64,000 nt of DNA from Hufsiella ginkgonis. GTDB taxonomy: Bacteria > Bacteroidota > Bacteroidia > Sphingobacteriales > Sphingobacteriaceae. The translations under genes were made by a program, and so were the position numbers. The stretch is from positions 1,054,001 to 1,118,000 of the forward strand of contig NZ_WVHS01000001.1 of assembly GCF_009834915.1 (NCBI RefSeq), written 5' to 3'. This document shows positions 5,674 through 14,565 of this stretch, one piece after another. Each line of letters opens with the position of its first letter. Position 1 is the stretch's first letter. The notes under the pieces were generated by a model. It made no database searches. It worked only from the letters and a program-made list of their open reading frames with translations, and was not told the origin of the DNA.

Positions 5674-5710
5674 TTAGTATATTGTATTCCCTCTTAGCGG
5701 CATTGCTTCA

Positions 5711-6160
5711 TCAAGCCTTTTTATACAACTCTGGGTGCTTATTTTTCCAATACTTTTCAAATTCAGCCACTCTTATTTCATAATTATCACTACTAAAAAA
5801 ATCATTTATCAAATTATAATTCTCAAAAATTACTGATGATATATGAGCTAATTGTTTTCTATGCCCTTGTTCGATGTTTTTTTCTTTACGAAAATATTCT
5901 GATTTTGGGATTTGTGTATCACCTTGCCTCAGATATTCCAATAAATTAAAAAGATTTATTTCACTATCAGGCTTATTTATTTTATACAGAGTTGCATAAA
6001 ACTCTCGAAAATACTTTTCAATTTTAATCACAAAATCGCCTGAACTATATTCAATCATATAAGATTGCTCTTCGTTCAGTTCTTTTTTTATCTTAAAGCC
6101 ATACATTTCAACAAGCCCTTTAAAAAACTCGCAGATGTATTTTATAAAACTCTGTTCCAT
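5711..6160 (-). CDS. Putative immunity protein for the RHS toxin
   Basis: 149 residues with very low G+C and many Lys, Asn, Ile and Tyr codons, unlike most genes here. It starts 7 bases after the end of the RHS gene (6168), on the same strand, which is where cognate immunity genes sit in RHS loci. The product is acidic-aromatic and probably alpha/beta (YGFKIKKELNEEQSYMIEYS, EKYFREFYATLYK, INLFNLLEYLRQGD, FEKYWKNKHPELY), with no signal peptide and no membrane segment, so it should act in the cytosol. I do not recognise the family. The immunity role is inferred from position, size and composition. Confidence 0.65.
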   Translation of the reverse strand: MEQSFIKYICEFFKGLVEMYGFKIKKELNEEQSYMIEYSSGDFVIKIEKYFREFYATLYKINKPDSEINLFNLLEYLRQGDTQIPKSEYFRKEKNIEQGHRKQLAHISSVIFENYNLINDFFSSDNYEIRVAEFEKYWKNKHPELYKKA

Positions 6161-6167
6161 ATCAACT

Positions 6168-9100
6168 CTATTTTTTTATCATTCTTGAAAAATCGTCAGT
6201 CCATGAATAGCCATGTCTTTGCAAATACCTAATCTCTTGTCCAAGAACTGAATTGGGATCAAGCTTTAAGGGATTATATTTCCCAGAGAATATAATATCA
6301 TCCCCTCTTTTTACAACCTCTTGCAAAAATTCCACGTTCTTACGCATCGTCCATGCCTCATCGGTTACATTAAGGAAATTGGCGCCTATCTTTTTAGCAA
6401 ATTCCCTGTAAGTAGCCCTTGGCCCTATCACGCTTACCCCCTTAGCAGCCAGCCCTTGTTCCACCATCCTCGCCCCATCATCCAGAAACTCTCCCCCATG
6501 CGACGCGTAGTTAACTGCCCTGTTGGCCCCAATACCTGCCGCTTCTTCTGCCGCTATTCTTTGGACAGCCCTGCCGGCAATATACCTGGCCCCTGCCATA
6601 TATCCGAGCCTGCCCAGCATGTAAACGTCCCCTGCTCCCCAGGCAAGCATACCCACGTTAAACATATCGACCAGCGGATCGCGGCTTGCATTAAAAGCTA
6701 TCCGGTAATCGCGATAGGAATCGCTAACATATTTCAGCCGATAGTCAGTTTTCCCATTCGTAAACCGGTAAAGGTCTTCCCCGCTTAAACCGAGGGCCGC
6801 CCGAAAATCGTACCGCTCCCACGGGCTCATTTGGTTTGCATGGATCGGTACTACCGATAATTGCAGCATCCCGAAGAGGAAGTTATCATCGCCTACATAC
6901 TCCCATCCTGCAGGGATCGGGGTGCCGTCCGGTATCCATTTCGCCTTCCAGATCGATTCTCCTTGCGGCTTGATCCAGGGATTTAGCTTCATACCGAACA
7001 TGCCGCTGGGATCTACCATGTTCACCGGGTTGTTGTATACATAATTATAGGGCGACTGACTTTCATAGCCGTCAGGCATCGGGTCGACCACGTTCCACCG
7101 CGCGGTTTCAGGATTATAGAACCTGGCGCCATAGTCGTATTCCTTTAGCTCCGGCTGGTACTCTTTACCGTTGTATAGGTAGAAGTTATTGAGGGAGACA
7201 GGTTCTACGGGACGACGCTTCCCAAAGGGATAATATTCGTCTTCCTGCATCCGGGTGGCACTGCCATTATTAGGGTCCTTGCCAAAGGTAACCCGGACAT
7301 TGCCAAGATGATCCGCAAGATCGTACAAGTATTTACCATCGCTTACCCGGTAACGGCCTTCGCTGGTATGAATGAATTCGATGTTAGCGTTGGTATATTG
7401 TATTCCGCTGATATAATCTACCGCGGTTGAGCTTTGTTTACGGAGCATGCCGCCAAATGCATCATAGGTGTATGTGATACTTTGGCTCCCGCTTATCGTT
7501 TGAGGGAGATTAAGCATGTTGTAGCCGACGTTCACATTAACCTTCGAGCCATCGTACACTGTATTGCCATTAAGGTCATACTGGTAAGTGGCTGTATTGA
7601 GGCCTCCTCCCGATACCGAGCCTAACCGGTTTGTGCCTGATAGATAATTATAGCTTAATGTGCCTCCGTCGCGGTTCATCGACAGGATGTTGCCAGCCTT
7701 GTCATAGCTGATATTGCTCTCGTAGAACCCCCTGCTGGCGCTGCCCGCAGTAAGGCGGCCAAGCTTATCATAACTGTAACCCACCCATTGAGCGCCTGTA
7801 GAAGGCATCGTATACTCCTGTTCCGAGAGATCACCATTATAACGTGCCGTCGAGCCATGCTGGGGATCGTTATAACGCATTTGCTCGGTGAAAAGACCGG
7901 AGGATACTGATGTCATCCAACCCCGTTCGTTATACCCATAGGTTATACTATGCAAAAAGTTTGTACCACTATCTTCGGAGTGAAGTTTCTTGGTTCGTAA
8001 CTGCCCCAGATCGTTATATTCGAACTTTGAAAGTATGATTTCAGGGCTGTTATTCGTTTTCTGTTTGGTGTACACATTACGGCCCTGCGCATCATATTCA
8101 AAGTCCTGTTTGATAATGGCCGTCGTACCCCAGTTAACTTTATGTGCTCTACTGGTACCTATTACCTGCCCTATAAAACTATAATTGACGGCAGTTTCGT
8201 CATAATTCCCTTCGTTTAACAGTCCACCGAGGTAATGCTGGTTTATGCTTTTTACCACGTCGCCCTCATCGTCATAAACAGAAACGCTCCATAAATAATG
8301 CGACAAGTTATTAAGAACAGCCCTTTTTGAGGCGGTTGGAAGGCCCGAAGTCCGGTTGCTGGATGCTAAAGCTGCCTGGCTATAGGTACCTGGCAGCCCT
8401 GGTATGTTGTAATCATCGTAATAACTTACTTCCAGGTAAGCCGAAATATTGGCTTGTGGAACGGTTCGGTTGCTATAGCCTTGCGTTCCACCGCTGCTGC
8501 GGTATTCGTAAGCATAAGTTTGGGTATATGCTATCTCCTGCAGCAAGGCCCGTATTGAGTTCGCCGGTGCGCTTATATTTGCATCAGCGGTACTACCCGG
8601 ATGCTGGTATATACCGGTCATCAGCTTGCGTCCCAAACCATCATAACGGGCAAAGGTCCATTCCTGCGGGGACTTGTTCCGCTGTACGGCATCCTGGGTC
8701 ATTACCGTCTGACCTATGGAATTATAGACGATATATTCCCAACCCCGCCCAGGCACTTTCTTTTCCACCACCCGGTTACGTTCATCGAACCGGTACTGGT
8801 AGCAAAGATCGTCTAATACTGCCTGGGTAATCGCGTTGTCGTTATCTGGTTCTGCCTGCGGCGGAATCAGGTAACATAGATTGTTGTATTCATCGTAAAC
8901 GTAGTACGTGGACAGCATCTGTATCTGTCCGTTAGGCAGCTGGTTATAGATACGGTTAACGAGCAGTCTGCCGGCTTTATCATAGTATTGTTCCACGGTG
9001 CCTGCGCAGCCCGACTGCCAGTTTTCATCTTTTTTTACTGTGACGTAAAGGCTATTATCATCATAAATAGCTGTGCCGCCCGCCCGGTTTAGCGTACGGG

Positions 9101-9857
9101 TACCATTGGTGTTGGTGGATGCCCAATACTTTGCCACGCGCCTGCTACCTGTGCTAGTAGACGGGTTTAATACCGTATGATCGTTAACCAGGAACGAAGA
9201 CTTAACGGTATGCCCGCCCGACAGCTGCCATGGCGTTCCTGGTGCTGCCTGCTCTACCTGTCGTGAAAAGGGTGAAAGGTCGTAACGGGTATCGGCGAAA
9301 GGCGCGGCTGTACTTGCTACGCCTGTCGGAGCAGAATTGTAGTAGCTGGCCTGCTCTGCAAGCGCTGACGGGCGGAAGCCCCCATCGTTACCATTTACCG
9401 TATAAGGAAGGTAACTTCGGGGCGTCCGGCCAAAATTATCATAGTAGTTAGGCTGAACTATATCCTTGCCAGTCGGACTTGCCTTAGTGGATACCGTTTG
9501 GATAACCCGCCCCAGCCCGTCGTAGTATTGGACACCTTCGCTCACTTCGCATGTGCTGGCAGAAGTTAACTGCGCAGGCAACGTAAAGCCGGGAGCAAGC
9601 ACAGATCGTGATAGCGTAAATGTTGTACTCAATGATGGCTGAGACTGAAGTGGAATACATACATCGGCGACAGAACTGATATAGGCCCGAAAGGTCGAAC
9701 CTGCAGTGATAGTAAATCCGGGCAAAAGAGTGATGCTTTGACTAGCCTTAACCTCCGCCTGGCCACTGTAAGTGTTAAGCGACACATGTTGCTGTGCGGT
9801 GCTTTTAAATGCGGCTGCTATAAATGCGACGCATACAAAAATTTTATTGATGTTCAT
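6168..9857 (-). CDS. DUF6443 / RHS-repeat protein with toxin-like C-terminal tip
   Basis: 1229 residues from ATG 9857, which gives a signal peptide (MNINKIFVCVAFIAAAFKS); a start at 9893 adds 12 residues upstream of it. After SITLLPGFTITAGSTF comes a DUF6443 region (GVQYYDGLGRVIQ), then many YD repeats (YDxxGRL, YDKAGN, YDLNGN) and the RHS core LYDLADHLGNVRV...YDYGARFYNPETARWNVVDPM...DPSG, ending near residue 952. The last 277 residues (bases 6171-7001) are variable: a linker with glycine/alanine helices, then a tip of about 85 residues beginning near GPRATYREFAKK. The final 60 codons are AT-rich like the next gene, a sign of tip replacement. RHS proteins form a shell that carries a cleaved C-terminal toxin. 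The toxic activity here is not recognised. Confidence 0.85.
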   Translation of the reverse strand: MNINKIFVCVAFIAAAFKSTAQQHVSLNTYSGQAEVKASQSITLLPGFTITAGSTFRAYISSVADVCIPLQSQPSLSTTFTLSRSVLAPGFTLPAQLTSASTCEVSEGVQYYDGLGRVIQTVSTKASPTGKDIVQPNYYDNFGRTPRSYLPYTVNGNDGGFRPSALAEQASYYNSAPTGVASTAAPFADTRYDLSPFSRQVEQAAPGTPWQLSGGHTVKSSFLVNDHTVLNPSTSTGSRRVAKYWASTNTNGTRTLNRAGGTAIYDDNSLYVTVKKDENWQSGCAGTVEQYYDKAGRLLVNRIYNQLPNGQIQMLSTYYVYDEYNNLCYLIPPQAEPDNDNAITQAVLDDLCYQYRFDERNRVVEKKVPGRGWEYIVYNSIGQTVMTQDAVQRNKSPQEWTFARYDGLGRKLMTGIYQHPGSTADANISAPANSIRALLQEIAYTQTYAYEYRSSGGTQGYSNRTVPQANISAYLEVSYYDDYNIPGLPGTYSQAALASSNRTSGLPTASKRAVLNNLSHYLWSVSVYDDEGDVVKSINQHYLGGLLNEGNYDETAVNYSFIGQVIGTSRAHKVNWGTTAIIKQDFEYDAQGRNVYTKQKTNNSPEIILSKFEYNDLGQLRTKKLHSEDSGTNFLHSITYGYNERGWMTSVSSGLFTEQMRYNDPQHGSTARYNGDLSEQEYTMPSTGAQWVGYSYDKLGRLTAGSASRGFYESNISYDKAGNILSMNRDGGTLSYNYLSGTNRLGSVSGGGLNTATYQYDLNGNTVYDGSKVNVNVGYNMLNLPQTISGSQSITYTYDAFGGMLRKQSSTAVDYISGIQYTNANIEFIHTSEGRYRVSDGKYLYDLADHLGNVRVTFGKDPNNGSATRMQEDEYYPFGKRRPVEPVSLNNFYLYNGKEYQPELKEYDYGARFYNPETARWNVVDPMPDGYESQSPYNYVYNNPVNMVDPSGMFGMKLNPWIKPQGESIWKAKWIPDGTPIPAGWEYVGDDNFLFGMLQLSVVPIHANQMSPWERYDFRAALGLSGEDLYRFTNGKTDYRLKYVSDSYRDYRIAFNASRDPLVDMFNVGMLAWGAGDVYMLGRLGYMAGARYIAGRAVQRIAAEEAAGIGANRAVNYASHGGEFLDDGARMVEQGLAAKGVSVIGPRATYREFAKKIGANFLNVTDEAWTMRKNVEFLQEVVKRGDDIIFSGKYNPLKLDPNSVLGQEIRYLQRHGYSWTDDFSRMIKK

Positions 9858-9858
9858 G

Positions 9859-10308
9859 TTACGGTATAGGATGATATGAAACACCACGATCATTTACTTC
9901 TTTTAACGTTGCTCCGTTTAGCGGACGCTGTATTTCTTTTAGCATTTGCTGTTTATGCTGCTGCTTTTCTGCCTCAGAATGGGTGATCTCCCGCTGCAGC
10001 ATCGCAAAAAACCTCTCTTGCTGCGCCGGGGAAAGAAGCTGTTTTAACCTTGTCTGCCGTTCGGAACTGATGGTCAGCAATCGTTGCTGTAAGTCGCTTT
10101 TACTGATGGAAGTATCGTTTTTGGCGACGGTAACGAGCTGTCTGTACTCATCAAAAATTCGGACCATCTCCTCCGCTTTGAGCGGTTCGACGGCAATATT
10201 CTTCACCAAATAGGAGATACGCTCCGACTTTGATGGTTCGCTACTTTGCGCCTGGGAGCTAAATCCGGCAAATGCCGTTATGCATAAAATTAAATTGATG
10301 ATTCTCAT
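9859..10308 (-). CDS. Secreted Spy-like helical protein between the two RHS genes
   Basis: 149 residues with a signal peptide (MRIINLILCITAFAGFSSQA). The mature part is helical, with SERQTRLKQLLSPAQQERFFAML, close to the LTxxQ helix of Spy/CpxP-type proteins, and a long Glu/Gln/Lys helix afterwards. It ends one base before the RHS start codon at 9857 and begins 6 bases after the end of the DUF5977 RHS-like gene at 10315, so the three are almost surely one transcript. A periplasmic chaperone or regulator for the very large surface proteins is a reasonable guess, not shown. It resembles the protein at 831-1199 in kind. Confidence 0.65.
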   Translation of the reverse strand: MRIINLILCITAFAGFSSQAQSSEPSKSERISYLVKNIAVEPLKAEEMVRIFDEYRQLVTVAKNDTSISKSDLQQRLLTISSERQTRLKQLLSPAQQERFFAMLQREITHSEAEKQQHKQQMLKEIQRPLNGATLKEVNDRGVSYHPIP

Positions 10309-14489: not shown

Positions 14490-14493
14490 TCCG

Positions 14494-14565
14494 TAGTCCT
14501 GCCTGGATTCGAACCAAGATCAACAGAGTCAGAGTCTGGTGTGGTAACCATTACACTACAGGACT
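14494..14565 (-). tRNA. tRNA-Gln (CTG anticodon)
   Basis: Read on the minus strand, 72 bases fold into a cloverleaf. The acceptor AGTCCTG pairs with CAGGACT. The D arm contains TAATGGTTA. The anticodon loop CTCTGAC has CTG at the anticodon, and the T arm CTTGG-TTCGAAT-CCAGG pairs fully with one wobble. The first pair of the anticodon stem is a C-U mismatch. CTG reads the glutamine codon CAG. CCA is not encoded. The rest of 14,113-14,681 holds no gene I can support. Confidence 0.85.

Follow-up and report, generated by a model that had tools for sequence, protein, structure and literature searches.

A widespread, uncatalogued family of putative toxins at the tip of an RHS protein of Hufsiella ginkgonis and its putative immunity gene

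The locus and its RHS carrier protein

We analyzed a 64,000-nucleotide stretch of the Hufsiella ginkgonis genome (the window), in which four genes follow one another on the minus strand: a gene for a protein of 1,265 residues, a small gene for 149 residues, the gene of an RHS protein and an AT-rich gene, also for 149 residues (Table 1). The gaps between them are 6, 1 and 7 bp. The RHS open reading frame (6168-9893) has 1,241 codons, and its likely start is the ATG at 9857, 1 bp past the stop of the preceding gene. Residues are numbered here along the 1,241 codons; the first-pass annotation of this DNA counted from the ATG, our residue 13. It had described a 149-residue gene beginning 7 bases after the RHS stop, and this gene is indeed there. 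A tRNA-Gln gene (14493-14565, minus strand) lies just upstream of the operon and is a possible island boundary.

Table 1. Features of the RHS locus, in window coordinates
Feature	Position	Strand	Remarks and basis
Upstream large protein, 1,265 aa	10315..14112	-	Weak SpvB match at the N-terminus, RHS repeat and DUF5977; same operon as the RHS gene
Small 149-aa protein between the two large genes	9859..10308	-	Signal-peptide-like N-terminus
RHS protein	6168..9857	-	1,229 aa when started at the ATG at 9857; reading frame open from 9893; domain matches
End of RHS core	7002..7085	-	D937 and D961 (DP...DPSG), candidate aspartates of the auto-protease; the C-terminal part is probably released here
Linker, residues 965-1148	6450..7001	-	No relatives found in the examined loci or plasmids
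Toxin tip domain, residues 1149-1241 plus stop codon	6168..6449	-	DNA homology, family conservation, AlphaFold2
149-aa cognate immunity candidate	5711..6160	-	7 bp past the RHS stop; no signal peptide apparent
Mobile cassette (tip and 149-aa gene)	5689..6449	-	Extent of DNA homology with G092, G310, Ekhidna and Marinoscillum

Pfam and NCBIfam scans of the RHS protein returned GCX_COOH, DUF6443 (E = 8.9e-41), RHS repeat and the RHS-associated core, all over cut-off. The core model, TIGR03696, covers residues 887-965 (E = 1.4e-16; 60.8 bits against a cut-off of 32.5). The DPSG that closes the core ends at residue 964, or 952 in the earlier numbering, and 277 residues follow. Thus, the domain match and the translation agree with the first reading of this protein as a normal RHS core with a 277-residue extension. 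The same scans gave no match to PAAR or any other T6SS-type domain on the carrier, and its N-terminus, read by eye, resembles a Sec-type signal peptide. The core contains two aspartates, D937 and D961, spaced 24 apart. In RhsA, the catalytic aspartates D1324 and D1346 are 22 apart (PMC8765631), and cleavage of Rhs1 has also been described (PMC8636562). By analogy, D937 and D961 sit where other Rhs shell auto-proteases have their catalytic pair, and we regard them as candidate protease residues.

The 1,265-residue protein probably forms part of the delivery machine, since each of the six relatives checked (L170-L175) has a homolog immediately before its RHS gene, a conserved operon of two large RHS-type proteins. 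Homologs of the small protein encoded between them were found in a single related locus, L171, which has two copies. The host genome encodes SprA, the outer-membrane component of T9SS, and other toxins of Bacteroidetes have been suggested to be exported by this route (PMC7073777).

The tip and its neighbor as a mobile pair

Comparison of RHS homologs from related genomes, proposed at the outset as a check for a shared core with different tips, showed just this pattern: the relatives cease to match at about residue 965-1001. Within the H. ginkgonis genome itself, 14 RHS-core sites share the core and, where read, have different C-termini; the small genes that follow are mostly different as well, again where read. 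Some of these other loci are short or contain a stop codon. In two regions (C1:297000-312000 and C1:612000-637000, loci L063-L074), RHS-core fragments with different tips lie clustered, an arrangement like that of orphan tip arrays.

The last part of the gene behaves differently from the rest. DNA homology to other genomes starts at 6445-6449 and ends at 5689-5724, which corresponds to codon 1149 through the end of the AT-rich 149-residue gene. The pair is found on other backgrounds in four loci outside this genome, with identities of 81% in G092, 77% in G310 and 68% in the Ekhidna and Marinoscillum loci; the immunity gene partner of the same pair is present in L003, L004, L041 and L043. Furthermore, an orphan homolog of the 149-residue protein (59% identical) lies between unrelated genes in genome G335, with no toxin adjoining, as is typical of orphan immunity genes. 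Joint transfer of exactly the tip and this gene, differing tips on the cores of the same genome and an orphan immunity copy make a strong case for a toxin-immunity pair, as first proposed for this locus. We consider this sequence-based assignment well supported. In the G092 locus (L003, 1426-1785, reverse strand), the reading frame of the close tip copy differs from that of the RHS core just upstream, and the tip looks displaced or frameshifted; more small cassette-like genes follow the immunity gene there. Viral contigs and phage records contained no relatives that would point to a phage or prophage origin.

The base composition of the cassette was also examined. GC content is about 0.50 in the core and linker, 0.33 in the last 41 codons and 0.28 in the 149-residue gene, against 0.51 for the window, and the best single changepoint falls at 6331 (log-likelihood ratio 34.6). 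This confirms the reported switch to AT-rich DNA near the end of the RHS gene, with a composition like that of its neighbor. The switch lies inside the toxin domain, however: homology begins about 118 bp upstream of it, which sets the domain at 93 residues (1149-1241, window 6171-6449). The first-pass annotation was right that there is a discrete C-terminal tip, to which it gave about 85 residues; the module does not begin at the GC switch. It had also argued from AT-richness that the pair was acquired recently, and this we could not support. In each of the eight Bacteroidota loci measured, the immunity gene has a GC content of 26-32%, regardless of the surrounding host sequence. AT-richness is therefore a property of the cassette that says nothing about when it arrived, and we rejected it as proof of recent transfer.

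A family of putative toxins on RHS and CdiA proteins

The search for the tip began in 401 genomes of the same family, where close and weak copies were found. A profile built from tip copies then identified 26 loci among GTDB species genomes, in Bacteroidota, Bacillota, Pseudomonadota, Nitrospirota and Acidobacteriota. A plasmid search added a CdiA protein of Paraburkholderia with a tip of this family, and the tip of that CdiA led to a CdiA of Leptotrichia. Profile comparison verified that the family ends RHS proteins in the five phyla and CdiA proteins as well. The subfamily of the window tip matches the main subfamily with a probability of 98.7% (E = 3e-16). Compared with the main profile, the distant members L005, L015, L017 (a CdiA) and L044 reach scores of 60-84, with shuffled controls at 24 or less; the CdiA tip reaches 97.7% and a score of 69, while its shuffled copies stay at or below 19.5. 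Judged by these profiles, the window tip belongs to a wide family and is not a singleton. A standalone, lipoprotein-like protein of 223 residues in genome G306 (L009, 1114-1785), which has no RHS part, ends in a possible distant member; the profiles place it less securely, with a probability of 24% for the main one and 93% for that of the window subfamily.

The CdiA members of the family adjoin CdiB-type transporters. This bears on whether the pair could be a toxin-antitoxin module that regulates growth inside the producer and is never delivered. A growth-regulating role of this kind has been proposed for Salmonella RHS elements (PMC7043789), and co-encoding at a spacing of 7 bp would suit it. 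The signal-peptide-like N-terminus of the RHS protein, the conserved operon with a second large protein and the position of the same tips on CdiA next to transporters all argue for a delivered toxin instead, and we consider regulation within the producer very unlikely.

Four residues, N1186 (window 6336-6338), E1220 (6234-6236), L1224 and G1228, are invariant in all 30 tips compared, and Y1162 (6408-6410) is present in 29. V1155, G1157, W1181, F1189, L1190, G1197 and Y1223 are likewise nearly invariant. Two charged or polar motifs had been singled out earlier as possible active-site segments. One of them, LDPNSVLGQEIRYLQRHGY, does hold residues conserved throughout the family (E1220, Y1223, L1224, G1228 and Y1229); the other, KKIGANFLN, does not, except for A1171. 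The invariance of N, E, L and G, together with the finding that tip and gene are intact and adjacent across genera, also speaks against the tip being a decayed or non-toxic terminal domain with an unrelated passenger gene behind it. That no activity can be assigned to the tip and that some RHS-core loci of this genome are short or interrupted would fit such decay, which we nevertheless regard as highly improbable.

We searched for known families and folds that might match the tip. Neither its sequence nor its profile had a convincing match in Pfam, NCBIfam, PADLOC, PHROGs or PDB chains; the profile scan used the closer alignment, A3. AlphaFold2 modeled the window tip with moderate confidence (pLDDT 77.9, pTM 0.69) and a central family member, L021, with high confidence (pLDDT 93.6, pTM 0.84). 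The L021 model consists of alternating strands and helices with a final short strand pair. Foldseek found no significant match in the PDB for either model (best E-value, 1.2 for L021 and 0.14 for the window tip), and the window tip matched nothing significantly among viral models (best E-value, 0.05). The recommended structure prediction and profile search of the tip alone gave no family or PDB fold match. The predicted fold appears to have no solved counterpart in the PDB, a statement that stops short of calling it a new fold. The suggestion that the pair might be of a new type holds in that no family model, PDB sequence or PDB fold matches as far as the tools reach; it does not hold in the sense of an isolated type, for the family is wide. 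We conclude that the toxin family is uncatalogued yet widespread, and that the system itself is of a known kind, an Rhs polymorphic toxin. New tips of polymorphic toxins turn up regularly.

Two resemblances were pursued and abandoned. The order of strands and helices and an ELxYLxxxGY motif, resembling the helix with the catalytic Glu in nucleoside deoxyribosyltransferases (NDTs), prompted a DRHyd/NDT/TIR reading. We compared the tip profile with our own NDT, TIR and response-regulator alignments. The probability was 2.4% for NDT (PF05014) and 1.9% for TIR (PF13676), while NDT against TIR, the control, gave 88% and reversed alignments gave under 1%; the reading is unsupported. Weak Foldseek matches to AcrVA5 and putative acetyltransferases suggested a GNAT fold, which we dropped because the TM-score was about 0.3 and there is no acetyl-CoA loop.

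The immunity partners of the family fall into at least four types between which no sequence relationship could be drawn. Profile comparison links types A and C to each other and to the partners in L005 and L015 (67-97%). The window type, type B and the single types of L016 and L017 could not be convincingly related to the others by the same method; type B has a weak partial match to the L005 partner (59%, 36 columns). With several types unlinked, we rejected a single common relation of all immunity proteins. The window type and type A possibly have similar secondary structure. The window's 149-residue protein aligns with part of the profile of PDC-S64, a PADLOC candidate (positions 37-154 of 305; E = 5.2e-5), which none of the papers searched names.

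Proposed mode of action and related systems

We think it quite probable that the tip represents a new family of polymorphic toxins, acts as an enzyme in the cytosol and is paired with a cognate immunity protein. In the proposed sequence of events, the RHS protein would be exported by its Sec-type N-terminus with the toxin enclosed in the RHS shell. The shell aspartyl protease (D937/D961) would cut near DPSG, and the C-terminal part would pass into a neighboring cell, where the tip may work as a small enzyme in the cytosol. In kin, the 149-residue protein would bind and block it. A cytosolic target is favored because none of the immunity candidates has a signal peptide visible by eye. Conservation suggests that the active site is formed around Y1162, N1186 and E1220, although these residues could be conserved for structural reasons instead.

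The substrate can be narrowed only tentatively. Of 30 tips, 22 are basic, with a pI above 8.6, and acidic proteins prevail among the immunity partners, which hints weakly at a nucleic acid as the target; 8 neutral or acidic tips and the near-neutral immunity protein of the window (pI 6.3) weaken the argument. A nucleic acid is a plausible but tentative choice, with metal-independent cleavage of RNA as its likeliest form. A substrate of some other kind is less likely. NAD(P) or another nucleotide is less likely again: here the tip would be a hydrolase and not a nuclease, with Y, N and E holding the ribose and stabilizing the leaving group. NADase tips are known on Rhs proteins (PMC10539506, PMC13285283), and weak matches to TIR domains occur far down the Foldseek lists (4w8h, TM 0.41; a SARM1 chain, TM 0.43). 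These structural matches are below significance, however, and the NDT and TIR profile probabilities are far from that of the positive control; we find this reading doubtful. It is also unlikely, if conceivable, that the toxin fold is new, that its Y/N/E active site works without a metal and that its activity is undescribed among bacterial toxins; such a family would occur in no fewer than five phyla, on RHS as well as CdiA proteins, and would be opposed by several immunity folds recruited independently of one another.

Several known systems resemble this one. Rhs1/Tre23 of Photorhabdus and RhsA of Pseudomonas protegens likewise combine an RHS shell, a DPxG-type core end with two aspartates, a variable tip and an adjoining immunity gene; unlike them, the window system has no known tip domain, has a Sec-like N-terminus and belongs to a Bacteroidota operon with a second large protein. 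Among CDI systems (CdiA-CT/CdiI), the CdiA of Paraburkholderia sp. PREW-6R (WP_345817721.1) ends in a tip of the same family, but its carrier uses two-partner secretion and its immunity protein cannot be related by sequence to that of the window. BaCT/BaCTic and other TANFOR-class toxins of Bacteroidetes (PMC7073777) also have an N-terminal signal, a C-terminal toxin and a downstream immunity gene. Our Pfam and NCBIfam scans, in libraries that may lack a TANFOR model, gave no TANFOR match on the RHS protein. BaCT is a DNase that has been compared with PD-(D/E)xK families (PMC7073777), whereas the window tip has no D/ExK-type conservation. Tde5, a beta-beta-alpha metal DNase, is inhibited by both of its unrelated immunity proteins (PMC13392607). 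There, too, one toxin is countered by immunity proteins of unrelated structure; in the window family they could not be related by sequence, and the different types are used at different loci.

The tip is an uncatalogued, widely shared putative toxin domain of 93 residues, small enough to express and crystallize. It offers three candidate catalytic residues and, next door, a ready-made putative inhibitor. With one toxin family facing several immunity types that share no traceable sequence relationship, the recruitment of immunity proteins becomes directly testable.
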